64,000 bases of DNA, from contig JAXHNP010000006.1 of NCBI GenBank assembly GCA_034520365.1, positions 737,001-801,000 on the forward strand, read 5' to 3'. Numbering within the stretch: position 1 is the first letter of the stretch; every line of letters begins with the position of its first letter. The notes under the pieces were generated by a model. It did not search any database. It was not told the DNA's origin and saw only the letters and a program-made list of their open reading frames with translations. The position numbers and the translations under genes are program-made. This DNA is from Desulfobacterales bacterium. GTDB taxonomy: Bacteria; Desulfobacterota; Desulfobacteria; Desulfobacterales; Desulfosalsimonadaceae. Below are positions 36,312 to 47,185 of this stretch, piece after piece.

Positions 36312-38573
36312 TCACAGCCGGTTGCCCACCTCCCCTAACCCGTGGAGCCGGATCATCCCGGAGATCCGCTGATCGGTTTCATCATCCGAATATCCTACAG
36401 CAATTGACCAGCACTGGGATTGGTAGAGGGCTTCTATGCGTTTTTCAATGTCTGCACTGTCATCGAGGTTCCGTTCATATTCGCCGCTGATCCGGATGCG
36501 GTCTGTCAGGGCGATACTGGCGGCCAAATCAATGGACTGCCGGCTGTCCCGAAGATAGCGATACTCCAGTGCCAGATGATCGCCGCGCTGATTCCGCAGC
36601 CGGGCGGAGAGCAGGTGAGAGAGCAGTGTGTCTGCTTCATGGCTCCATTCCGCTTCGGCATGGAGGTTCAGCATCCGGACCGGGGTGATATCCATTTCCG
36701 CGTAAAGGGGAAGAAACGGCTCGGCATCGGTTTTCTTTTCCCTGTTAAAATCATAGGCCTGTTCAATGAAAAACCGGAAAAAGCGGTTATATCTGGCCTC
36801 AGCCGCTTCCCGGCCGGCATCCGTCTCCGGCCTGGCGTCCGGATCAAAATATTTGGCGGTCAGCAGGTGGGTTAAGGAAAAGCTGATCTGGTTGGCCCCC
36901 GCGATCCGGTCAATGCTGTCAAAATCCGGATATTCGGACTGGTCCGTGTCCGGTACGTATTCATAGGCAAGCTCCGGAATGATCGTATGCTTGATAGGAC
37001 GCGCCGCAGGGGTTTGATCCTTGTATATCCGGTAAAGATCCGTGGAAAGCGTTGCTTTAAGGTCATAGAGTTCCCGGTGCTGATAGTCTTTGTCCCTGCC
37101 CGCGGCTTCAGTCTCCATATCCGGGTCATCATCGGCAGACCAGGCGGTCTGGCGGATGCCGGCGGAGGGCTCGAACGTAAAGAAGGGGCCGGCGCGAAGG
37201 GGCAGGGAAAACCGGGGGTGGATGTCCATCCGGTGGCCTGAGATGCCGTCCTGGCGGTAAAAATAGGTGTACTCCGTGTCTGATTGAAAAAAAACCGGGC
37301 TATCCAGCATCGGCTGCTTTAAAACGTCAAAGGTCATGGCCGGCAGCTGCTGAAGGGTATCATCGCTATCTTCCAGCCGCCGCTTGATAACATTGTCATA
37401 CCAGAGCAGATCCGCGTTAAAGCTGTACCGGGGCCAGATTTTCTGAAGGTGGGCCCGGTTTTCCCGGACCGGATCATCATTATCGTCCAAGCCCCGGCCG
37501 AATTCAGACGCAAAATAGGCATTGGTGTCATCATATCCGGTATACCCGTCCTCAAATTCCCGCAAATAATCCTGGTCGCTTACAATATCCAGATCCAGCT
37601 GGGCATCCATGCCATAGGGCATCTCCTGGTCGGCTTTCATGCGGAACCAGTAGCGGTCGGAATTGGGCCGCAGATACCGGTCATCGCCATAGCCCCACTC
37701 AGCCCCTGCGGCCTCGTCATCGTCCACCTTCCGGTCCTCCATTCCGTCAAACATCAGGGCGCCTTGAGACTGAGGGCTTAGCCGGTAGCGGAATTCGCCG
37801 CCCAGTTTTTCGCCCCGGTTCTGGATGTGGTGATAGTAGAATGTGGCATCTAAGCTCCTGTGGATCGCCCAGTAATAGGGCTGGATAAATTCAATACCGT
37901 TTCGGTCTGAAAACCCGGCTTCCGGGGCCAGAAAACCGGATTGCCGGTTTCGTTTGACCGGAAAGGCAAAATAGGGAAGGTAGGCGACCGGAAGGTTTTT
38001 TGCCCAGAGCGCAGCATGGCGCACCGAGCCGTAGCCGCCCATATCCACTGCCAGATCCCGGCCGGTCACCTGCCAGTCCGGCACTTCGCCGTCACAGCTG
38101 GTTAAACTCCCGCGATTGATCGCATAATGGTCCTCCCCGGTCTTTTGAATCTTATCGCCCCGGATGTAGAAGTTCTTCTCCTCGATAAAAATCAGGCCTT
38201 CATAAACCGTACCGGTCTGCTCATTCAGGTCAAGGTTCATTCGGCTGCCGGACAGGCGGTCGCCCCGGCTGACCAGCCGGACATTGCCGGAGGCGTGCGC
38301 CTGCATGGTGGATTGATTGAACCGGACCGAATCTGCGAAAAGCGTGGTGGCGCCTTTTTTTATGACCACCTGGCCGGTGGCCGTATAGACATCCTGATCC
38401 TTGTCATAGACCAGGCGGTCGGCCGTGATGCGCCAGGGCGCGCCTTCTCCGCTGTCATTGGGTAGGGGCAGGGTTTCCGCCCGGCTGCTTGGGGCGGTTC
38501 CGGCAAAAATAACGGCAGCCAGAAAGAGGAGAAAGCCACTGATTCGCAACAATTTTTGATTTTGGGTGTTCAT
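36312..38573 (-). CDS. lptD: LPS-assembly protein LptD
   Basis: A 753-residue outer-membrane protein. A signal peptide follows the chosen start at 38573 (hydrophobic SGFLLFLAAVIFAGTAP, cleavage near SSRAE). Next come the LptA/OstA beta-jellyroll (TADRLVYDKDQDVYTATGQV, residues about 47-170), the conserved LPYFAFPVKRNRQSGFLAPE segment, and a C-terminal beta-barrel of alternating strands. It inserts lipopolysaccharide into the outer leaflet. The longer frame to 38621 would run into the TIR of the neighbouring mobile element. It shows that the host is Gram-negative with LPS. Confidence 0.93.
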   Translation of the reverse strand: MNTQNQKLLRISGFLLFLAAVIFAGTAPSSRAETLPLPNDSGEGAPWRITADRLVYDKDQDVYTATGQVVIKKGATTLFADSVRFNQSTMQAHASGNVRLVSRGDRLSGSRMNLDLNEQTGTVYEGLIFIEEKNFYIRGDKIQKTGEDHYAINRGSLTSCDGEVPDWQVTGRDLAVDMGGYGSVRHAALWAKNLPVAYLPYFAFPVKRNRQSGFLAPEAGFSDRNGIEFIQPYYWAIHRSLDATFYYHHIQNRGEKLGGEFRYRLSPQSQGALMFDGMEDRKVDDDEAAGAEWGYGDDRYLRPNSDRYWFRMKADQEMPYGMDAQLDLDIVSDQDYLREFEDGYTGYDDTNAYFASEFGRGLDDNDDPVRENRAHLQKIWPRYSFNADLLWYDNVIKRRLEDSDDTLQQLPAMTFDVLKQPMLDSPVFFQSDTEYTYFYRQDGISGHRMDIHPRFSLPLRAGPFFTFEPSAGIRQTAWSADDDPDMETEAAGRDKDYQHRELYDLKATLSTDLYRIYKDQTPAARPIKHTIIPELAYEYVPDTDQSEYPDFDSIDRIAGANQISFSLTHLLTAKYFDPDARPETDAGREAAEARYNRFFRFFIEQAYDFNREKKTDAEPFLPLYAEMDITPVRMLNLHAEAEWSHEADTLLSHLLSARLRNQRGDHLALEYRYLRDSRQSIDLAASIALTDRIRISGEYERNLDDSADIEKRIEALYQSQCWSIAVGYSDDETDQRISGMIRLHGLGEVGNRL

Positions 38574-38618
38574 CCTGCACTGTATCCATTGGGTTGGCGA
38601 AAACCGGTGGATTCTGGT

Positions 38619-38770
38619 CACGGTAAATTTGTTTTATCTGTTTTTCAGGCGGGCACGGTGGCCCGCCCTACGCGACAATGCAGACATTTTGTAGGGTCGG
38701 CCACCGTGCCGACCTTACATGCGAGAAACCCCATGGTTATGGGGTCGTTCGCCAGAACAAATTCACCGTG
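38619..38770. mobile_element. 152-bp MITE with TIRs, REP pair and exact 10-bp target duplication
   Basis: The element starts CACGGTAAATTTGTTTTATC and ends with the near complement AGAACAAATTCACCGTG. It is flanked by GGATTCTGGT on both sides (38609-38618 and 38771-38780). Inside are REP hairpins 38648-38671 (minus, GGCGGGC stem) and 38691-38714 (plus, GGTCGGC stem) and the CCCCAT/ATGGGG palindrome. It sits in the 319-bp gap between divergent lptD and the YhaM-like gene, 46 bp from the lptD start. Confidence 0.88.
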
Positions 38771-38892
38771 GGATTCTGGTTATCTGGCCTTGAAGCCCAT
38801 CGAATTTTTCAGTATAGATCCATGATGGTCTTTTGAACGTTACCAATTTTTCAGCTTAATGCTTTTAAGCTTTTATCATAAAGGCGGCCAGA

Positions 38893-39855
38893 ATGAAAAA
38901 TATCTTTGTCAGTGATCTGAAATCCGGGCAAGCGGTAAACGACAGCTTTGTGCTCGCGGAAAAGCATTTGTCCCGGAAAAAGGACGGCGGCCAGTATATT
39001 ACCGGGGTATTATCCGATAAAACCGGCACCGTCAAAGGGGTGGTCTGGGATAATGTGGAGGAATTAACCGAAAAGCCGGCTGCCGGCGATTTTGTCCATA
39101 TTCGGGGAAATGTCTCCGAATACCGGGGGACGCTTCAGGTGGTGATTCAGTCCATGGTAACGCTGGCGGCAGCGGATGTGGATAAAGCGGATTTTTTGCC
39201 GGCCACCCGCCGGAATCCATCGGCCATGTTTGAAAAATTAAAGGCTGTTTCGGATTCCATGGCCAACCCGGATCTAAAGGCCCTTTTGGCCGCCTTCTGG
39301 TCGGATGCGGCGTTTGTGGAAAAATTCAAAACCGCGCCGGCCGCCAAAAAGATGCACCATGCCTATCTCGGCGGCCTGCTCGAGCACACATTGTCGCTCG
39401 TCCTCCTGGCGGATCGGATTGCGGACCACTATAGCGGCATTGACCGGGATTTGCTTTTGACCGGCGCGATCCTCCATGATATCGGTAAAATTAAGGAGTT
39501 CCGCTATGAGCGGCAAATTGACTACTCAGACGAGGGCCGGCTGGTCAGCCATCTCGTGATCGGAGTAGAGATGGTCCAGGAAAAAATCGCCATGCTTCGC
39601 GACTTCCCGCCCCGGACCGCCATGCTGATCAAGCATATGATAGTCAGTCATCACGGCAATCGGGAATACGGTTCCCCTGAGCCGCCCAAAACCCTGGAAG
39701 CGGTGATGCTTAATTACCTGGATGAAATTGATGCCAAGATAACCGGTATCCGGGAATTCATGGATAAGCAGGCGGCGGATGAGGACTGGACCAGTTATCA
39801 TAGGCCGCTGGACCGGTTTTTTTACAAGGCGGCGATGACGCCGGATCCGGAATAA
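38893..39855 (+). CDS. YhaM-type 3'-5' exoribonuclease (OB fold plus HD domain)
   Basis: A 320-residue protein with an N-terminal OB-fold nucleic-acid-binding domain (GQYITGVLSDKTGTVKGVVWD, about residues 1-95) and an HD phosphohydrolase domain (HHAYLGGLLEHTLSL, GAILHDIGKIKEF, KHMIVSHHG, LNYLDEIDAK). This order matches YhaM, a 3'-5' exonuclease acting on RNA and single-stranded DNA. The metal-binding His-Asp residues are all present. It is 15 bp upstream of tmk and probably co-transcribed with it. Confidence 0.88.
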   Translation: MKNIFVSDLKSGQAVNDSFVLAEKHLSRKKDGGQYITGVLSDKTGTVKGVVWDNVEELTEKPAAGDFVHIRGNVSEYRGTLQVVIQSMVTLAAADVDKADFLPATRRNPSAMFEKLKAVSDSMANPDLKALLAAFWSDAAFVEKFKTAPAAKKMHHAYLGGLLEHTLSLVLLADRIADHYSGIDRDLLLTGAILHDIGKIKEFRYERQIDYSDEGRLVSHLVIGVEMVQEKIAMLRDFPPRTAMLIKHMIVSHHGNREYGSPEPPKTLEAVMLNYLDEIDAKITGIREFMDKQAADEDWTSYHRPLDRFFYKAAMTPDPE

Positions 39856-39870
39856 AGAAAGAATAAATAG

Positions 39871-40521
39871 ATGTTTATTACATTTGAGGGGATCGAGGGC
39901 TCGGGGAAGACCACCCAGATTCGTCATGCAGCCGAATTTCTGACCGCTGCCGGGCACCGGTGCCGGATAACCAAGGAACCTGGGGGGACGGCCGTCGGCC
40001 GGCAGATCCGGTCCATCCTGCTGGATCCGGAAAACCGGGATATCCATTCGGTGACGGAACTGCTATTATATGCGGCAGACCGCAACCAGCATGTACAGAA
40101 ACTGATCCGGCCGGCCCTGGCAGACGGGCAAACCGTCATTTGCGACCGGTTCCATGATTCAACCGTGGTCTACCAGGGGTATGCCCGGGAACTGGATATG
40201 GGGTTGATCGAAGATTTAAACGCCCGGCTGCTGGCTGATCTTAAGCCGGACATCACCTTTGTCCTGGACCTGGAGCCGTCCGTCGGACTTAGGCGGGCCT
40301 GGCAGCAGGTAAGCCAGGGGGATCGCACCGACCGTGAAACCCGGTTTGAAAACGAGGCGCTTTCTTTTCACCAAAAGGTGCGGGCGGGCTACCTGGAACT
40401 GGCCCGCCGGGAGCCGGGCCGGTTTATTGTAGTTGATGGGGCCCGGGATGAAGATGCGGTTAAAGAGGATATTTTAACCGCGCTGGCGGAAAGGCTTGGG
40501 GCCAAAGGGCAAGAGGCTTAA
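39871..40521 (+). CDS. tmk: Thymidylate kinase
   Basis: A 216-residue kinase with P-loop GIEGSGKTTQ (residues 6-15), the DR(F/Y/H) motif ICDRFHDSTVVYQG, and LID-region Arg residues in QVSQGDRTDRETRFENE. It phosphorylates dTMP to dTDP. tmk is commonly found near holB; here holB lies about 4 kb away on the other strand. The end is followed by 272 bp of repeats before the next gene. Confidence 0.96.
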   Translation: MFITFEGIEGSGKTTQIRHAAEFLTAAGHRCRITKEPGGTAVGRQIRSILLDPENRDIHSVTELLLYAADRNQHVQKLIRPALADGQTVICDRFHDSTVVYQGYARELDMGLIEDLNARLLADLKPDITFVLDLEPSVGLRRAWQQVSQGDRTDRETRFENEALSFHQKVRAGYLELARREPGRFIVVDGARDEDAVKEDILTALAERLGAKGQEA

Positions 40522-40556
40522 CCTGGGGGGCGGGTTTCAGTGTTCAGGTGTCAGGA

Positions 40557-40680
40557 AAATGCCGTTAACTTAAGAATGAGAATTGTTTCGGTTGTCATTT
40601 CGATCGCCAGCGAGAAATCTTAGGATTCCTCGTCGCTGTCGCTTCTCGGAATGACAGTGGCGGAAGGCTAAAGTTAATGA
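40557..40680. repeat. GTCATTTCGA inverted-repeat element, copy 1
   Basis: An element of about 124 bp beginning AATGCCGTTAACTTAAG and containing a long imperfect hairpin from GTTGTCATTTCGATCGCC to TTCTCGGAATGACAG. A related copy lies in inverted orientation at 44622-44745. No coding potential. Confidence 0.7.
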
Positions 40681-40726
40681 AACAGGGGATCAAGATTTAT
40701 AATGCCTGTTTTGAACACTGAAATCT

Positions 40727-40770
40727 AAACCCTGAACCCTGAAACCTGAACCCTGAACCCTGAACCCTGA
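40727..40770. repeat. AACCCTG heptamer tract upstream of the CysM/CysRS-like gene
   Basis: Six AACCCTG units, one changed to AAACCTG, ending 24 bp before the fusion gene start. It lies in the leader region and may affect expression. Confidence 0.85.
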
Positions 40771-40793
40771 CAGTCCGATACAGAGGCGAGTTG

Positions 40794-43094
40794 ATGGGCA
40801 AAACCATATTAGATGCCATTGGAAATACCCCGCTGGTGGAAATACAGCGGCTGAACCCGAACCCGAGGGTTCGTATTTTCGCCAAAATTGAATACATGAA
40901 CCCGGGCGGCTCCATCAAGGATCGGCCGGCGCTCTCCATGATCGAGGCCGGGGAGCGTTCCGGACAGTTAACCCCGGATAAGACGGTGATTGAGGCCACC
41001 AGCGGCAATACGGGTATCGGCCTGGCCATGGTCTGCTCGGTCAAAGGGTATCGGCTGCTTCTGGCCATGCCGGAATCCGTCAGCATTGAACGCCGGAAGA
41101 TTTTAAGCGCCCGGGGGGCGGAGATTCTGTTGACCCCGGGACATCTGGCAACCGACGGCGCCATCGAAGAGGCCTACCGGCTGGCCCGGGAATATCCGGA
41201 AAAATATTTCATGACCGACCAGTACAATAATGAGGCCAACTGGATGGCCCATTATTCAGGCACGGCAGAGGAGATTATCCGCCAGACCGAAGGCGAATTG
41301 GCCATGTTTGTCGGCACCATGGGCACCACCGGCACATTGATGGGCATATCCCGGCGGCTTCGGGAATATGACCCGAACATTCGGATTATCGGGGTGGAGC
41401 CGTATTTCGGCCATAAACTGCAGGGGCTGAAAAATCTGAAAGAGTCCTATCGGCCGGAGATATTCGCCAAGCAGTGGCTGGATGAAAAGGTGAACATCGA
41501 TGACGAGCCCGCCTTTGAGATGACCCGGCGCCTGAGCCGCGAAGAGGGCCTGTTCGTGGGCATGAGCAGCGGGGCGGCCATGGCGGTGGCCGCCCAGCAG
41601 GCGGAAGCCATGGAGCAGGGCACCATCGTGACCATATTCCCGGACAGCGGGGAGCGGTATCTGAGCACGCCGATTTTTGAAGTCAAAAAGCGGGATGACA
41701 TCCGGCTGTTTAACACCATGAGCCGCTCGGTGGAGCCGTTTGAGCCGTTAAAGGCCGGCCGCGTGTCCATCTACTCCTGCGGCCCCACCGCCGATTCCCG
41801 GATGAATATCGTCCAGTGCCGCCGCTATGTGTTTGCCGATATCCTCTGCCGCTATCTTTCCTACCGGGGTTATGAGGTGACCCATGTCATGAACATCACC
41901 GATTATGACGACAAGACCATTCAGGGATCGGAGGCGGCAGGTGAGGATTTGGCTGCATTTACCGGGCGCTATATCGAGCTTTTTAAACAGGATCTGGCAG
42001 CGCTTCAGATCCGGCCGGCGGATGAATACCCCAGGGCCGGTGAACACGTCAATGACATGGTGGAAATCACCCGGGACCTGGTGGATAAGGGGGCTGCGTA
42101 TGAAAAAATGCGCTGCGTCTATTTTAATATCAGCGCCCTGGATGAATACGGCGGCCTCTCCGGTATTGATCTGGACAAGATCAGGCTCGGCGCCACGGTG
42201 GATCTGGATGATTATGAAAAAAACAATCCCAAGGACTTTACCCTGTTAAAGCGGGTCCGGCTTTCCGACCTGAAACGGGGCTTGTATGTGAAAACCAAAT
42301 GGGGCAATGTGCGGCCGTCCTGGCACATCCAGTGCGCGGCCATGTCAATGAAGTATCTGGGCGAGACCTTTGATATTCATACCAGCAGCCGGGATCTTTT
42401 GTTTCCGCACCATGAAAATGAGATGGCCATTGCCCGGGCGCTGACCGGAAAACCGCTGGCCCGCTACTGGCTCCATTGCGAGCGGGTTGGGCTTGACCCG
42501 GCAGCCCAGGGCGATGGCGGTGAAAAGCAGGATCTGCCGGGCCTGGATGTGCTTTTCGGGGAGGGATATACGGCCCGGGAAATCCGGTTCTGGCTGCTCT
42601 CCGGGCATTACCGCAAGCCCCTGACATTTGACCGGGACCGGCTGATCCAGGCGAGAAATACATTGAACCGTCTGGATGCTTGTGTCCAGGCACTTTTAAA
42701 TGTCTCATCCGGCGAGCCCTACCCGGAAATCGATCAGCTGGTCTATGACATCAGGCAGGGTTTTATCAATTCCATGGATGATGACCTGAACATGCCGCAT
42801 GCCATTGCCGCCGTGTTCAAGGCCGTTCGTCGGATTAACCGCCTGATTGATAACCGGCAACTGGCTGCAGCGGATGCCGAGAAAATCCTGGAGAGTTTCA
42901 GGGATATCGATCAGGTGCTGAAAATCTTTGACTTCAGTCCCGCCGGCCGGATGGATTCGGACGTGCAGGACTTGATGGACCGGCGGGAAGCGGCCAGAAA
43001 GGCCGGCGATTTTGCCGAGGCCGACCGCATCCGCGATGAGCTCAAGGCCAGAGGCATTGACGTCCATGACCAAAAACTCGGAAGGAGTGAATAA
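40794..43094 (+). CDS. Fusion of CysM-like cysteine synthase and CysRS-like protein lacking HIGH and KMSKS
   Basis: A 766-residue fusion. Residues 1-300 form a complete fold-type II PLP enzyme closest to CysM: Lys42 in NPGGSIKDR, the EATSGNTG loop, VGTMGTTGTLMG and FPDSGERYLST. From about residue 308 it is a cysteinyl-tRNA synthetase body. The zinc/cysteine site is intact (Cys329 in YSCGPT, Cys514 in WHIQCAAM, His539 and Glu543 in PHHENE, with E. coli-like spacing). However, the HIGH position reads NIVQ (338-341), and the KMSKS loop is deleted (EKQDLPG at about 577-583). Charging of tRNA therefore looks impaired. The C-terminal helical part is retained. It may act in cysteine or persulfide metabolism. 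Start ATG at 40794 follows GAGGCGAG; a TTG lies one codon earlier. Confidence 0.87.
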   Translation: MGKTILDAIGNTPLVEIQRLNPNPRVRIFAKIEYMNPGGSIKDRPALSMIEAGERSGQLTPDKTVIEATSGNTGIGLAMVCSVKGYRLLLAMPESVSIERRKILSARGAEILLTPGHLATDGAIEEAYRLAREYPEKYFMTDQYNNEANWMAHYSGTAEEIIRQTEGELAMFVGTMGTTGTLMGISRRLREYDPNIRIIGVEPYFGHKLQGLKNLKESYRPEIFAKQWLDEKVNIDDEPAFEMTRRLSREEGLFVGMSSGAAMAVAAQQAEAMEQGTIVTIFPDSGERYLSTPIFEVKKRDDIRLFNTMSRSVEPFEPLKAGRVSIYSCGPTADSRMNIVQCRRYVFADILCRYLSYRGYEVTHVMNITDYDDKTIQGSEAAGEDLAAFTGRYIELFKQDLAALQIRPADEYPRAGEHVNDMVEITRDLVDKGAAYEKMRCVYFNISALDEYGGLSGIDLDKIRLGATVDLDDYEKNNPKDFTLLKRVRLSDLKRGLYVKTKWGNVRPSWHIQCAAMSMKYLGETFDIHTSSRDLLFPHHENEMAIARALTGKPLARYWLHCERVGLDPAAQGDGGEKQDLPGLDVLFGEGYTAREIRFWLLSGHYRKPLTFDRDRLIQARNTLNRLDACVQALLNVSSGEPYPEIDQLVYDIRQGFINSMDDDLNMPHAIAAVFKAVRRINRLIDNRQLAAADAEKILESFRDIDQVLKIFDFSPAGRMDSDVQDLMDRREAARKAGDFAEADRIRDELKARGIDVHDQKLGRSE

Positions 43095-43098
43095 TACC

Positions 43099-44043
43099 GT
43101 GAAACCGGTCTATTTTCCGTTCACATGCGTATCCGGCGAGCTGATCGCCCGAATCAATCAGTATGTCGGCCCTTTTATCGTATACCAGCCGCTCTCGGAC
43201 CAACCCCCGGCACCGGTGGCTGAGGCTGCCCGGGAAGGCCGCGTTGAATTCCGGGCGCCGGTGACAGGCGATGAGGCGCAAATCCTCGATGCGGCCCAAC
43301 GCTCCCAGCACTGGGGCATGGCCCATCAGGGGCATATGGAGGCATTCAGGGTGCCGGCCGGCGGGGACTTTTACAATGAAACCTTTGCCGCGGAAATCCG
43401 GTCCGAAATTCTGGGGACCAAAACGCCGCAGGCGGATCCGGCGCCCATGTATACGGCCCGGCTGTTTCTTTACCTGGCCCAGGCATTTGATATGCAGCAG
43501 AGCACGCTTCACGAGGAACTTACGGCATCGGATCGTACGCGGAAACAAATGTTTTCAGACCTGAAAGGGGATGCGGAAACCCGCCTGCCGGCATCTGAGA
43601 AACATAGTCCGGAGGATTTGGGCGAGTACCAGACCCGAAACCGGATTACCTCATGGCTTCGCCTGGCCGCAGTGGAAACCGGGCCGGTACCCGCTTTGCT
43701 GACCACCAGCCGGGCCGTATTTGAGCATATTCTTGAATTCGTGCCCAATGTTCAAATTGCGCAAACTTTTGATCAAGGGCCGCCGGGTGAGGCGTTTAAA
43801 CAGGCGCTGCCTGATTATTGGCGGGAACTGGCTGAGGGCCAATCCCCTGAATCGATAACCCCGCCGGCTGCCACCGGTCTGACGGCGGAGGCGGCGCAAA
43901 TGCAGTTAACTGTGGCGGTTTTGCCGGCAAGCACGCCGGCGGAGCTCCTGGAAAAGCTGCTTGAACCGGATCAGTCGTCCCCGGCAGATTTTGGAAAAAC
44001 CGGTCGCATACTGCTTAATCTGCTCTCAGTTAAAAAAATATGA
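43099..44043 (+). CDS. Conserved-looking hypothetical protein downstream of the CysM/CysRS-like fusion
   Basis: A 314-residue protein of unknown function. The GTG at 43099 is chosen because GGAAGGAG lies 11 bp upstream; longer ATG frames lie inside the fusion gene. It begins KPVYFPFTCVSGELI and contains segments rich in Ala, Pro and Glu. No membrane segments, signal peptide or catalytic motif are recognised. A segment around residues 110-140 (MYTARLFLYLAQAFDMQQST) and the C-terminal half look helical. It starts 4 bp after the fusion stop, so the two are almost certainly co-transcribed and could cooperate. Confidence 0.7.
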   Translation: MKPVYFPFTCVSGELIARINQYVGPFIVYQPLSDQPPAPVAEAAREGRVEFRAPVTGDEAQILDAAQRSQHWGMAHQGHMEAFRVPAGGDFYNETFAAEIRSEILGTKTPQADPAPMYTARLFLYLAQAFDMQQSTLHEELTASDRTRKQMFSDLKGDAETRLPASEKHSPEDLGEYQTRNRITSWLRLAAVETGPVPALLTTSRAVFEHILEFVPNVQIAQTFDQGPPGEAFKQALPDYWRELAEGQSPESITPPAATGLTAEAAQMQLTVAVLPASTPAELLEKLLEPDQSSPADFGKTGRILLNLLSVKKI

Positions 44044-44051
44044 GCAGGGGC

Positions 44052-44146
44052 TTGACTGCCTTTATCAATTGGGATATGAGATTCCTCTTTAGCTTTGTGT
44101 TTGGGCCAAGTATTTGGATAAAAGAGAAATTTTTCTCATATCAATT
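44052..44146 (+). promoter_or_regulatory. Candidate promoter and long-range inverted repeat before the ferredoxin gene
   Basis: TTGACT (44052-44057) and TATGAG (44075-44080) with a 17-bp spacer give a moderate sigma-70 promoter. AATTGGGATATGAGA (44067-44081) is nearly complementary to TTCTCATATCAATT (44133-44146), so the transcript leader could fold into a stem just before the GAAAGGAGA ribosome site. Confidence 0.45.
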
Positions 44147-44170
44147 AATTGATGAAAGGAGATTGGAAAA

Positions 44171-44359
44171 ATGGCGTTTAATCCGATTGTTGATCCGGAA
44201 AAGTGTGAAGGGTGCGAAGAATGTGTTGATGTCTGCCCGGTTGAGGTATTTGAAATTCAAGATGGTAAATCGGTTCCGGTTAACGCCGAGGAGTGCCTCG
44301 GCTGCGAATCCTGCATTGAAGTCTGCGAGCCCGGCGCGATTACGGTTGAAGAGACCTAG
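44171..44359 (+). CDS. 2[4Fe-4S] ferredoxin
   Basis: A 62-residue ferredoxin with two CxxCxxCxxxCP/E motifs: CEGCEECVDVCP (residues 12-23) and CLGCESCIEVCEPG (residues 42-55). It is acidic overall and would carry low-potential electrons in the cytoplasm. The second motif has Glu before Pro, an insertion seen in some clostridial and deltaproteobacterial ferredoxins. A strong ribosome site (GAAAGGAGA) precedes the ATG. It is a separate unit from the upstream gene and ends at a hairpin. Confidence 0.95.
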   Translation: MAFNPIVDPEKCEGCEECVDVCPVEVFEIQDGKSVPVNAEECLGCESCIEVCEPGAITVEET

Positions 44360-44375
44360 CCCCTGTTTCACTTTC

Positions 44376-44408
44376 AGCTTCCCCGGTTATCCGTTAATCG
44401 GGGAAGCT
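44376..44408 (+). terminator. Probable terminator of the ferredoxin gene
   Basis: A 10-bp perfect stem, AGCTTCCCCG/CGGGGAAGCT, with a 13-nt loop begins 17 bp after the stop. It lacks a clear T-tract (GCTTTGCC follows). The rest of the 420-bp gap to 44779 holds only repeats. Confidence 0.6.
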
Positions 44409-44508
44409 GCTTTGCCTGCCTTTCCCAAGCCCTTTCGACAATTATTTATCCAAACTCTTAAATACGCATATGACCCTTCTAAAAAACTTCATCGTACTCA
44501 GTCCCGCG

Positions 44509-44610
44509 CGAGCGGCACGGTGGCCGACCCTACGATGAATCGGGTTTTTCCCCATTCGTAGGGCGGGCCACCGTGCCCGCCTGAAAAATAGATAGAACAA
44601 ATTTACCGTG
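44509..44610. repeat. Left-truncated MITE with REP pair
   Basis: A minus REP with an imperfect outer stem (44509-44532) and a plus REP with a GGCGGGC stem (44558-44581) are followed by the right TIR AGAACAAATTTACCGTG (44594-44610). The left TIR is missing, and GTACTCAGTCCCGCGCGAG precedes the remnant. Confidence 0.7.
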
Positions 44611-44621
44611 CTTTAGCATTA

Positions 44622-44745
44622 AGCACCTGTCATTTCGAGGAACGACAGTGACGAGAAATCTAAAAAAATCATTTAATTACAAGATTTCTCGCTGCCGCTC
44701 GAAATGACAACCGAGCCAATTTTTAATCTTAAGTTAATGGCATTG
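44622..44745. repeat. GTCATTTCGA inverted-repeat element, copy 2
   Basis: A hairpin from CTGTCATTTCGAGGAACGAC (44629 onward) to GCCGCTCGAAATGACA, with inner AGAAATCT/AGATTTCT arms, ending CTTAAGTTAATGGCATT. It is the inverted counterpart of the element at 40557-40680. Confidence 0.7.
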
Positions 44746-44779
44746 TCCCAAACCTTTAATTGTTTACAGGTCACGTTCA

Positions 44780-46048
44780 ATGGATTGGCTGTTGCCTGAA
44801 ATGGCGGTTATCCGGCAGTCCCTGGTCAGCCGTGAGATTGCCGATGTGCCGGCCGCATTTGCGGCGGCCATGGCGCCGATTGAAAAAGCCCTCGGCAGCG
44901 AAAATGGCGCGTCCGTGGCGGTTTGCGTGGGCAGCCGCAACATTTCCCGTTTGGATGCGCTTGTTTTTCAGTGCCTGCGGTTTTTAGAAGACAAGGGGTT
45001 CCGGCCGTTTATCGTGCCGGCCATGGGCAGCCACGGCGGGGCCACGTCAAAGGGGCAGAGGGCGGTGCTGGCTGGTTTTAACATTACTGAGAGCACTATG
45101 CAGGCGCCCATTGCAGCGGAAATGAAGGCCCGGCCCATAGCGTCGCTGGGGGCGGATCTGCCGCTTTATGTTTCAACCGCCGCGCTTGACGCCGACTATA
45201 TCGTGCCCATTAATCGGATCAAGCCCCACACCAAGTTCAGCCGCGCCATTGAAAGCGGTATTTGCAAAATGCTGACCATCGGCCTTGGCAAGGCGGACGG
45301 TGCGGCCGCATTTCACCGGGCCGCAGTTACCCGAGGGTTTGGCATTATTGAACAGGCGGCCGAAAAACTGCTCAAACACCTGAGCATTCTGTTCGGCGTG
45401 GGGGTGCTGGAAGATGGATACAGCCGGCTTTCCCATATCGCGGCCCTGCTGCCGGAGACGATGATTGATCGCGAAAAAGAGCTCCTTTTGCAGGCCAAGC
45501 AGATGATGCCGGCCATTCCGTTTGATCCAATCGATATGTTAATTATTGATCAGATCGGCAAAGACATCTCCGGTATCGGCATGGACTCCAATGTGACCGG
45601 CCGTCACCGGGATATTGCGGGGGATTTTTACAGCGCCCCGCATGTGAAGCGCATTTTTGTAAGAGGCCTATCCCCTGCCTCGGGTGGCAATGCCAACGGC
45701 ATCGGATTGGCGGATGTGACCACCCGCCGGCTGGCGGATGCGGTTGACTGGCAGAAAACCTTTGTCAATGCGGTAACCGCCGTTTCTCCGGAAAAAGCGG
45801 CCCTGCCCATGCATTTTGAAACCGACCGTGAGTGTCTGACGGCCTGTGCAAAAACCACGGGTGTGGCGGAAATGCCGGGTCTGCGACTCGTCCGTATCAA
45901 GCATACAGCCAGCCTTTCTTATCTGCAGGTATCCAGGCCGCTGGAATCCGAAATCCAGGTTAATCCCGCACTTTCCCGGATAGGCGACTGGGCGCCGCCT
46001 GCCTTTGATGCTAACGGCAATCTGAAGGATTTCATCCCCGATGAATGA
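44780..46048 (+). CDS. LarA-like (DUF2088-type) domain protein
   Basis: A 422-residue cytoplasmic protein. The segment FIVPAMGSHGGATSKGQRAVLAGFNI and the following TRGFG, IKPHTKFS and SGICKMLTIGLGK resemble the N-terminal domain of the lactate racemase LarA family. LarA itself uses a covalently bound nickel-pincer nucleotide on a Lys and active-site His residues. I see no clear equivalent of the LarA HxxH pattern, so racemase activity is not claimed. It may be a paralogue acting on another 2-hydroxy acid. Its stop overlaps the ogt start by 8 bp. Confidence 0.65.
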   Translation: MDWLLPEMAVIRQSLVSREIADVPAAFAAAMAPIEKALGSENGASVAVCVGSRNISRLDALVFQCLRFLEDKGFRPFIVPAMGSHGGATSKGQRAVLAGFNITESTMQAPIAAEMKARPIASLGADLPLYVSTAALDADYIVPINRIKPHTKFSRAIESGICKMLTIGLGKADGAAAFHRAAVTRGFGIIEQAAEKLLKHLSILFGVGVLEDGYSRLSHIAALLPETMIDREKELLLQAKQMMPAIPFDPIDMLIIDQIGKDISGIGMDSNVTGRHRDIAGDFYSAPHVKRIFVRGLSPASGGNANGIGLADVTTRRLADAVDWQKTFVNAVTAVSPEKAALPMHFETDRECLTACAKTTGVAEMPGLRLVRIKHTASLSYLQVSRPLESEIQVNPALSRIGDWAPPAFDANGNLKDFIPDE

Positions 46049-46538
46049 ACCGGCATGCGCTGCTGCTGATACCCCGCTTGGGCCGGTGGCCATCCGGTAT
46101 CAAACCCACCCTTTTCGGTTAACGGCCCTGGAATTGCCAGAGCCGGGCCGGCTTAGACAACAGCATGCGGCCGGTATGCCGGAAATTGAAGAATTGCAGC
46201 AGATATTTGCACTGATCCATGGTTATTTCAACGGCCGGCCCATTTTTCCGCCCTGGCAGTTTCTTGTCATGGCCCATTTAACCAAACTCCAGCGGAAAGT
46301 TCTTTACGTAACCGCCCAAATCCCCTATGGGTCATTAAAAACATATAAACAGATGGCCGCGGCCATCGGACAGCCCCGGGCCTGCCGGTTTGTGGGCAGC
46401 GCCCTGGCCGGAAATCCGTTTCCCCTCATTCTCCCCTGCCATCGGGTGATCCGCAGTGACGGGCGCATCGGAAACTTCGGCGCGGGCCCGGAAATTAAGC
46501 GGTGGCTCATTGATTTTGAGGCCGGAAACTCGCGGTAA
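46041..46538 (+). CDS. ogt: Methylated-DNA--protein-cysteine methyltransferase
   Basis: A 165-residue DNA repair protein. The active site is the Cys of LPCHRVI, with the recognition helix and arginine finger in TYKQMAAAIGQPRACRFVGSALAGNP. It removes O6-alkyl groups from guanine by irreversible transfer to Cys. The N-terminal domain is shorter than in Ada. It overlaps the upstream gene by 8 bp. Its stop codon (TAA, 46536-46538) is part of the left TIR of a mobile element, so the native C-terminus may have been altered. Confidence 0.93.
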   Translation: MNEPACAAADTPLGPVAIRYQTHPFRLTALELPEPGRLRQQHAAGMPEIEELQQIFALIHGYFNGRPIFPPWQFLVMAHLTKLQRKVLYVTAQIPYGSLKTYKQMAAAIGQPRACRFVGSALAGNPFPLILPCHRVIRSDGRIGNFGAGPEIKRWLIDFEAGNSR

Positions 46539-46609
46539 ATTTATTCTATCTGTTTTTCTGCCTTACGCGATAATGCAGACATTTTGTAGGGTCGGCCACC
46601 GTGCCGACC
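46531..46609. mobile_element. Older MITE copy, interrupted
   Basis: The left TIR (CGCGGTAAATTTATTCTATC, 46531-46550) overlaps the end of ogt. CAGACATTTTGTAGG and a plus REP hairpin (46586-46609) follow. The copy is interrupted at the REP by the element 46610-47185 and continues as CGTGCCGACCTTAGATGC after 47186; its right TIR is not recognisable. Confidence 0.75.
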
Positions 46610-47185
46610 CAGGGCTAATTTGTTCTGTATCCAAATCGAAATCGCTATCGGGATCGGGATCGAAATCGAAATCGAAAAAATATGACCCTTGGACACGAAA
46701 AACTGGACGTCTATCGCCTTTCAATAGGCTACGTTGCATGGGTTTACGAGAAGGCCGACAGCCTGAACGGAGTCCATCGGCCTGCCCGGGATCAATGGCT
46801 TCGGGCCAGCCAGTCGATACCGCTCAATATCGCCGAAGGTAATGGCAAGACCGCGGAAGCCGACCGAAGGCGTTATTTCGAAATCGCTCGTGGCTCCGCG
46901 CTTGAGTGGGCGGCGATTCAAGATGTGCTGGTTGTCGGCAAGGCGCTGGACAAGATGGAAAGCCGGAACCGCAAGGATGAACTCGACCGTATGGCCGCGA
47001 TGCTCAGCCGTCTCGGCGGAAGAGGATACCAAGTTCGAGAGGATCAGGAAGTCTACAGCATCGATTTCGATCCCGATCCCGATTTCGATCCCGATAGCGA
47101 TTTCGATCCCGAGGAAAACGAATCCCAACCTTAGCGTTAACAGGACCGGGGGTATGGATTTTGCGGTTAGAACAAATTAGCCGTG
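46610..47185. mobile_element. 576-bp TIR element carrying a four-helix-bundle gene
   Basis: The left end CAGGGCTAATTTGTTCT and right end AGAACAAATTAGCCGTG are inverted repeats of the MITE type. They are flanked by the exact 10-bp duplication CGTGCCGACC (46600-46609 and 47186-47195), itself part of a REP hairpin of the older copy. Inside the TIRs, a second inverted repeat (22 bp exact, 46635-46656 against 47086-47107, in GATCCCGAT/ATCGAAATCG-rich DNA) brackets the gene 46682-47134. No transposase is encoded, so mobility would depend on an enzyme elsewhere. Confidence 0.82.
46682..47134 (+). CDS. Four-helix-bundle protein (23S rRNA intervening-sequence type)
   Basis: A 150-residue protein with the family pattern LDVYRLSIGYVAWVYEKAD, LRASQSIPLNIAEGNGK and RRRYFEIARGSALEW. 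This family was named from proteins encoded in intervening sequences of 23S rRNA genes; a related protein (Avd) helps diversity-generating retroelements. The molecular function is unknown. The Asp/Pro-rich tail (DPDPDFDPDSDFDPEE) is encoded by the right arm of the flanking inverted repeat, so it is repeat-derived. The gene lies inside a TIR element with target duplication, not in an rRNA gene. Confidence 0.85.
   Translation: MTLGHEKLDVYRLSIGYVAWVYEKADSLNGVHRPARDQWLRASQSIPLNIAEGNGKTAEADRRRYFEIARGSALEWAAIQDVLVVGKALDKMESRNRKDELDRMAAMLSRLGGRGYQVREDQEVYSIDFDPDPDFDPDSDFDPEENESQP

Follow-up and report, generated by a model that had tools for sequence, protein, structure and literature searches.

Organization of the fusion gene and its neighbors

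The window, by which we mean the whole stretch of 64,000 nucleotides that was analyzed (contig JAXHNP010000006.1 of a Desulfobacterales bacterium, assembly GCA_034520365.1), carries on its forward strand an open reading frame at 40794-43094 that reads without a stop through 766 amino acids and joins a cysteine synthase to a module resembling cysteinyl-tRNA synthetase (CysRS). The features of the locus, with the basis on which each was placed, are as follows.

39871..40521, + strand: tmk (thymidylate kinase), upstream of the fusion; neighbor in 22/34 loci (set: window, L004-L035, L083-L085)
40794..43094, + strand: fusion gene, CysM-type cysteine synthase and very probably non-charging CysRS-like module, 766 aa (ORF, profiles, full-length homologues)
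40794..41678, + strand: cysteine synthase (CysM-like) domain, residues 1-295 (profile and alignment)
40917..40919, + strand: codon of Lys42, the PLP lysine, in 69/69 fusions (alignment)
41430..41432, + strand: codon of Lys213, in 69/69 fusions (alignment)
41697..43082, + strand: CysRS-like module, residues 302-763 (profiles, alignment, structure superposition)
41805..41816, + strand: former HIGH site, residues 338-341, reading NIVQ and followed by the invariant Arg343-Arg344 (alignment)
42522..42542, + strand: degenerate KMSKS loop, residues 577-583, reading EKQDLPG (alignment)
42939..43082, + strand: anticodon-binding domain, residues 716-763 (Pfam, alignment)
43099..44043, + strand: downstream partner gene with a GTG start and no family assigned; adjoins the fusion in 30/34 loci (same set as for tmk)

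A profile search placed cysteine synthase (TIGR01136) on residues 6-295 at 358.4 bits, against a curated cut-off of 344.15, and CysRS (TIGR00435) on residues 304-763 at 338.8 bits, against a cut-off of 340; with the longer open frame the latter score becomes 341.5 bits. Pfam recognized catalytic, DALR and anticodon-binding domains in the CysRS half, the anticodon-binding domain (PF23493) at 31.4 bits for a cut-off of 23. In the synthase half, the PLP lysine Lys42 sits in the motif SIKDR and, together with the substrate loop Ser70-Gly71-Asn72-Thr73, is present in all 69 aligned fusions. These profiles and the ORF agree with the original prediction, made from the sequence of this region, that a CysM-like PLP enzyme is fused in frame to a CysRS body. 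The arrangement extends well beyond this genome, as many Desulfobacterota, members of a mostly sulfate-reducing group, have an intact CysM-type synthase joined to a full-length CysRS fold without HIGH and KMSKS.

The GTG of the downstream gene lies 4 bases past the fusion stop and is preceded by the stretch GGAAGGAG. A fold search with the product of this gene gave no usable match (best Z 3.5, rmsd 3.6, 110 residues), and no Rfam match marking an RNA element near the fusion gene was found in 38000-47000.

The structural model of the fusion, predicted with 27 sequences (mean pLDDT 81.1, pTM 0.57), superposed on the CysRS 8qhp with a Z of 46.6 (rmsd 2.2, 393 residues) and on the cysteine synthase 2q3b with a Z of 35.9 (rmsd 2.0, 284 residues). 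Its residues 302-762 matched 1u0b, a CysRS in a tRNA complex, at Z 45.5 (rmsd 3.3, 429 residues), and the mycothiol ligase MshC (3c8z) was matched at Z 41.5 (rmsd 2.3, 369 residues). Given the pTM of 0.57, the model leaves the mutual placing of the CysM and CysRS halves unfixed.

The charging motifs are lost across the family

The alignment comprised 69 full-length fusions and 39 ordinary CysRS of fusion-bearing genomes, the window's own included; L010, which the pattern missed, was left out of 70 full-length fusions, and L134 and L157, represented by a wrong ORF, were left out of 41 ordinary CysRS. The 69 rows do not stand for 69 independent lineages, since L008 is a near-copy of L084 and there is close kinship among other rows. 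KMSK occurred in none of the 69 fusions compared with 39/39 ordinary CysRS, and a HIGH-like motif, defined as [HT][ILVM]G[HN], occurred in 3/69 fusions compared with 39/39; no fusion had both motifs. Forty-eight further ordinary CysRS from other organisms all had the HIGH-like motif, and 47 of them had KMSK, with KMAK in the remaining one. The loss of KMSKS is graded: 21/69 fusions retain KMS followed by a residue other than Lys, L086 is a fusion with HLGN and KMSRS, and KMS is found in 0/29 rows of loci L001-L035 and L083-L085, a set drawn mainly from the window's order. The two arginines just past the HIGH site are invariant in all of the fusions. Mean site identity, expressed relative to ordinary CysRS (stray rows L134 and L157 included), was lowest in the KMSKS segment, at 0.64; the two Rossmann parts stood at about 0.8, and the connective, helical and anticodon parts reached 0.98-1.04.

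The genome of the window has a normal cysS, with HIGH and KMSKS, elsewhere, adjoining an ispF-like frame that we take to be ispF. Searching 33 fusion genomes with the cysS family gave a CysRS separate from the fusion in 33/33, and in another sample of fusion genomes a second CysRS-like match outside the fusion was present in 20/20; in a few genomes it was only a fragment, as in G135 and G176 of the 33. The possibility that the fusion is its genome's sole CysRS is thereby ruled out, and tRNA charging is done by the separate, normal CysRS. As the original prediction had read them, the HIGH position is NIVQ and the KMSKS loop is EKQDLPG; the alignment places both as stated and extends their absence to the family. 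The two findings that would have spoken against it, a fusion serving as the only CysRS or relatives retaining both motifs, were not encountered. Since a normal cysS lies elsewhere and the motif loss is common to the family, the CysRS half of the fusion very probably does not charge tRNA, and from the shared loss of HIGH and KMSKS we infer that it forms no cysteinyl-adenylate. This has a consequence for annotation: many fusions exceed the score cut-off for cysteine--tRNA ligase, very probably without having that activity.

Conservation, distribution and origin

Homologues from the same genus are 83-85% identical to the fusion over its full length. The dN/dS ratios of 12 pairs (dS exceeded 1 in several of these) lay at 0.05-0.13 in the CysM half and at 0.06-0.20 in the CysRS half, so that both halves look to be under purifying selection. 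The full-length homologues and these ratios rule out chance or error as the source of the fusion, and the ratios together with a pattern of motif loss common to the homologues rule out a decaying copy; the missing motifs are a conserved trait of the family.

Within the window's genus, family and order, 103/116 genomes (its own included) had a match better than 1e-120, some of these being pieces at contig ends, and across the phylum 157/394 genomes matched at 1e-110 or better. At least 31 fusions or pieces (L004-L031, L033-L035) were among the best 79 loci listed. The titles of the listed fusion loci name Desulfobacterales, Desulfobacteraceae, Deltaproteobacteria, Candidatus Desulfaltia and Desulfocicer vacuolatum, with L026 from an uncultured proteobacterium; a named member is Desulfocicer vacuolatum DSM 3385, of the order Desulfobacterales. 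In a plasmid search 818 records matched, and among the matches listed one covers at least 80% of the query, as two pieces over about 2.9 kb. The fusion was not described in the literature that we searched, a body of work with most subscription journals outside its scope.

In a tree of the CysM half, the 69 fusions fell on one side of a branch (support 98/92) with 22 stand-alone CysK/CysM proteins outside it. In a quick, midpoint-rooted tree of the CysRS half, 30 fusions were split from 65 ordinary CysRS (support 100), and the sequences drawn closest to them were, instead of the resident cysS, CysRS from DPANN archaea and CPR bacteria together with one from a Lentisphaerales. A single fusion event is the simplest reading and fits both trees. 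An origin as a recent duplicate of the resident cysS is ruled out by the separation of the two in the tree. A CysM gene beside CysRS in the Micrarchaeota record L032 was considered as an ancestor and rejected, that CysM being separated from the fusion's by a long branch. Five relatives in which the search found no fusion have stand-alone CysM proteins with 50-53% identity to the N-terminal half; the CysRS module is therefore dispensable to such an enzyme.

A probable housekeeping role for the cysteine synthase

We searched 60 fusion genomes, a non-random set chosen to cover a range of families, for serine acetyltransferase (CysE; TIGR01172, E up to 1e-25) and for CysK/CysM (TIGR01136, E up to 1e-45). 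The fusion was the only CysK/CysM found in 30/60, and 29 of these 30 genomes had no detectable CysE, the exception being G162 with a weaker match of 116 bits (CysE with the fusion only, 1/60). CysE and a second CysK/CysM were both present in 28/60, a second CysK/CysM without CysE in 2/60 (G232, G322), and neither in 29/60, including the one-contig genomes G126, G140, G149 and G207. CysE thus goes with the second CysK/CysM (28/1/2/29, Fisher p 2e-13, kinship ignored). The same searches in 20 genomes without the fusion found CysE in 16/20 and CysK/CysM in 19/20. The window's own genome has both routes, with CysE at C6:276292 and CysK at C6:278476, lying together. Being the only CysK/CysM found in half of the sampled genomes, the fusion probably fills the housekeeping role in cysteine synthesis in many of these bacteria.

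Residues of the synthase half point to its likely substrate. CysM of Mycobacterium tuberculosis is an O-phosphoserine sulfhydrylase, in which the residue opposite Lys213 of the fusion is presumably Arg220, a residue that we take to bind the phosphate. In an ungapped alignment Lys213 meets an Arg of this protein (3dki/3dwg), so that a basic residue is present at the putative phosphate-binding position of an O-phosphoserine sulfhydrylase, and it is Lys in 69/69 fusions. At the same position 22 stand-alone proteins have Lys (11) or Gln (10) in all but one case, and the CysK of the window's genome has Gln with a seven-residue insertion beside it. In the CysK of T. kodakarensis, as far as the available text of the report goes, Lys stands in place of the Sep-binding Arg297 (PMC5120207). 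From the residues and the missing CysE, the substrate of the fusion synthase is most likely O-phosphoserine.

A supply of this substrate appears to be supported in part. With one SerC family searched, a match exceeded the cut-off in 15/33 genomes, was weak in 6/33 and was missing in 12/33; SerC is the usual source of O-phosphoserine. For the SepRS-dependent cysteine route, TIGR00470 exceeded its cut-off in 0/33 genomes, with weak matches of 24-29 bits in 10. A MetX-type acetyltransferase (TIGR01392, 1e-20 or better) was found in four of the 33 genomes (G000, G126, G446 and, weakly, G357), too few for MetX to be a general hidden source of O-acetylserine, which is ruled out; in G126 and G446, which have neither CysE nor a second CysK/CysM, it is a possible source. 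For this phylum, the fusion marks a point at which sulfide likely enters cysteine, and an O-phosphoserine route is predicted.

The anticodon site outlasts the zinc site

Arg423, Arg427, Trp432 and Asp436 are reported to be among the residues through which E. coli CysRS contacts the anticodon base G34 (PMC12684709, consulted in part). In the alignment these correspond to Arg731, Arg735, Phe740 and Asp744 of the window's protein. Across the fusions, Arg423 is kept in 69/69, Arg427 as 67 Arg and 2 Lys, an aromatic residue at 432 in 69/69 and Asp436 in 69/69, the same pattern as in the 39 and the 48 ordinary CysRS. Of 110 sites that are invariant in ordinary CysRS the fusions retain 39 (at 95% or more), and the retained sites comprise 7/7 in the anticodon domain compared with 31/97 in residues 2-310 (Fisher p 0.0006) and 1/6 in the helical domain. 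Taken as a whole, the anticodon domain shows faster evolution than the remainder of the module, with a dN/dS of 0.11-0.38 in the 9/12 pairs with finite dS, and therefore only a handful of its sites are pinned. The conserved anticodon residues may be structural.

The zinc ligands of the window's protein, Cys329, Cys514, His539 and Glu543, align with E. coli Cys28, Cys209, His234 and Glu238, in keeping with the original assignment. The full Cys-Cys-His-Glu set is present in 46/69 fusions, the window's protein among them; taken singly, Cys28 is kept in 59, Cys209 in 59, His234 in 69 and Glu238 in 50, and Trp205 is found in 65/69. Both zinc cysteines are gone in a branch of six (L098, L104, L105, L112, L117, L120), in which the anticodon pattern Arg-Arg-Trp-Asp is present in 6/6 and none of the six genomes yielded a CysK/CysM other than the fusion. 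In E. coli CysRS, the formation of persulfides is reported to depend on each of Lys73, Lys76, Lys266 and Lys269 (PMC5660078, consulted in part). All four together occur in 0/69 fusions, and in the window's protein only Lys73 is aligned. Among the 39 ordinary CysRS seven have all four and 32 have three; because Lys76 varies there it is a poor marker of persulfide formation, and the telling one is Lys269, present in 0/69 fusions compared with 39/39 ordinary CysRS.

The non-translational role that had been proposed for the CysRS half is thus supported in one part, as this half is very probably non-charging, and unsupported in the other, which rested the role on cysteine held at the zinc site. With 23/69 fusions lacking at least one zinc ligand, a zinc-held cysteine cannot be a function common to all of them; it may matter where the site is kept, as in the window's protein.

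A possible tRNA-responsive cysteine synthase

Our preferred reading, which we regard as a serious possibility short of probable, is that the fusion combines a housekeeping cysteine synthase with a non-charging regulatory module that would bind tRNA-Cys. The N-terminal half would use PLP chemistry to form cysteine, with sulfide as one substrate and O-phosphoserine as the most likely other one; the C-terminal half, a retired CysRS with its anticodon-reading site kept, would make no cysteinyl-adenylate and could be expected to bind tRNA-Cys. Binding of tRNA-Cys, probably uncharged, to the module would change the activity of the attached synthase, and the output of cysteine would thereby follow the tRNA-Cys charging state of the cell. 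In members retaining the zinc site, free cysteine could act there as a second signal. Of the models that would explain why the anticodon sites have outlasted the ATP and zinc sites, a tRNA-Cys-responsive synthase is the simplest. If the module senses tRNA-Cys or cysteine, the fusion would be a new, fused form of regulation by a synthetase paralogue and would link tRNA charging directly to a biosynthetic enzyme. A sharper version, in which uncharged tRNA-Cys read by the retired CysRS turns on the fused O-phosphoserine-dependent synthase, possibly the only route from sulfide to cysteine, we advance more hesitantly; if true, it would mean that a metabolic enzyme in bacteria is switched directly by tRNA.

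Regulation without tRNA can also be envisaged, with the module binding free cysteine at the old zinc pocket and inhibiting the synthase in the manner of HisZ, a HisRS paralogue reported to regulate a histidine biosynthetic enzyme (PMC9437257, consulted in part). The full zinc set in 46/69 fusions, His234 in 69/69 and Trp205 in 65/69 are consistent with such feedback, but it is unlikely in our view, as 23/69 lack at least one ligand, the six-member branch has no zinc cysteines even though the fusion is the only CysK/CysM there, and the kept anticodon site is left unexplained. That site would be accounted for if the module served solely to bring cysteine production close to charging, by binding tRNA-Cys or by pairing with the real CysRS, a scheme that also agrees with a single old fusion and with a separate CysRS in 33/33 genomes (two in fragments); the predicted model, however, does not fix the domain arrangement (pTM 0.57), and we rate this delivery role somewhat lower than feedback by cysteine. 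A purely structural tail, supporting the folding or oligomerization of the cysteine synthase, would be in line with the stand-alone relatives and with the loss of the tail's catalytic motifs. We find it a little more doubtful still, since members across the sampled phylum retain the full fold and 39/110 invariant sites, including the G34 contacts.

Two further readings, which give the module a chemistry of its own, seem very improbable. The role originally put forward, in which the zinc site of the CysRS half would hold cysteine made by the CysM half for use in persulfide formation or sulfur transfer, draws on the zinc ligands kept in the window's protein and is opposed by the incomplete zinc set in 23/69 fusions and by the four persulfide lysines, found together in none. 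Hardly better placed is a residual ligase that would still activate cysteine as MshC does, with tRNA or a small molecule as acceptor, at any rate in members like L086: KMS persists in 21/69 (the next residue never Lys) and a HIGH-like motif in 3/69, but KMSK is found in 0/69, KMS in 0/29 rows of L001-L035 and L083-L085, and neither motif is recognizable in the window's protein.

Comparison with known systems

The putative tRNA-Cys-responsive synthase can be set beside several known proteins. HisZ is not known to have an anticodon domain and is a separate subunit (of HisG), whereas the fusion module is covalently joined and keeps its anticodon site. The two may be alike in architecture, each being a synthetase paralogue, non-adenylating in HisZ and presumably so in the fusion, linked to an enzyme from the biosynthetic pathway of its cognate amino acid; in the part of the source available to us, HisZ is described as lacking adenylation activity and controlling its partner (PMC9437257). 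Gcn2, reported to be activated by the binding of uncharged tRNA (PMC4335047, consulted in part), likewise has a synthetase-related domain joined to another enzyme, but it is a yeast kinase with a HisRS-related domain, whereas the fusion places a CysRS fold, with putative tRNA sensing, on a bacterial metabolic enzyme.

MshC is a CysRS paralogue with the same fold as the fusion module and uses ATP (PMC9437257, as far as consulted). The part of MshC that is matched, in the profile as in the chains, stops short of the anticodon domain that the module possesses, and the MshC profile (TIGR03447) scored 183 bits on the window's protein, below its cut-off of 485.1. CysRS* of some Desulfobacterales is likewise an extra CysRS in the same order; it is described as having no anticodon domain and as charging SelC* (Mukai 2017b, cited in the part of PMC9437257 consulted), whereas the fusion keeps the anticodon domain and is without the charging motifs. 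M. tuberculosis CysM, which aligns without gaps around Lys213/Arg, differs in having no CysRS module and in its basic residue, Arg in place of the fusion's Lys. Finally, the DPANN/CPR CysRS (L032, L036, L044, L047, L058, L066) and that of the Lentisphaerales L037, the closest rows to the fusion branch in the quick midpoint-rooted tree, differ from the fusion in keeping HIGH and KMSKS-like motifs and in not being fused.

A partner gene adjoining the fusion

The gene that recurs beside the fusion of a CysM-type cysteine synthase with a CysRS-like module lies downstream of it in the window:

43099-44043, partner gene, downstream of the fusion

This gene adjoins the fusion in 30 of the 34 loci compared (the window, L004-L035 and L083-L085), a count made up of 27 loci that passed the length filter and three (L029, L033 and L034) that were read from their locus neighbourhoods. 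In 13 of these 30 the two genes overlap by 4 bases, and in two other loci, L091 and L118, the partner gene lies directly upstream of the fusion instead. A search of its product for Pfam and NCBIfam matches found none, and comparison of the fold of its predicted model (pLDDT 80.9) gave no clear match. A nickel pincer cofactor-dependent isomerase of group 22 (NF052515, 453.9 bits; cut-off 400) is also encoded in the window, at 44780-46048.

Variation among the fusions and their relatives

Both zinc cysteines are gone in one branch of fusions (L098, L104, L105, L112, L117 and L120), and the fusion itself, the G34 contacts of the anticodon-binding domain and the PLP lysine are all retained there. 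Just outside the fusion clade in the tree, six stand-alone CysM relatives (L168, L169, L170, L172, L173 and L183) end in a conserved two-cysteine tail, for example RSVCAECPP. One genome, G095, carries two fusion paralogues (C38:13018-15282 and C44:10327-12459), which share 63% and 50% identity, respectively, with the protein of the window. The reading frame of the copy in the one-contig genome G126 (C1:2736763-2739035) shifts around residue 565, on the border of its degenerate KMSKS loop; this may reflect a sequencing error, a split gene or a pseudogene.

Tandem repeats and tRNA genes in the window

Upstream of the fusion, about eight copies of TGAACCC form an array (40712-40770) that ends 23 bases before the start codon and is possibly a phase-variable or regulatory element. 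Two further short tandem arrays occupy 46629-46677 and 47062-47112, the latter within a small reading frame. At 769-927, tRNA-Gly (gcc) adjoins tRNA-Cys (gca).
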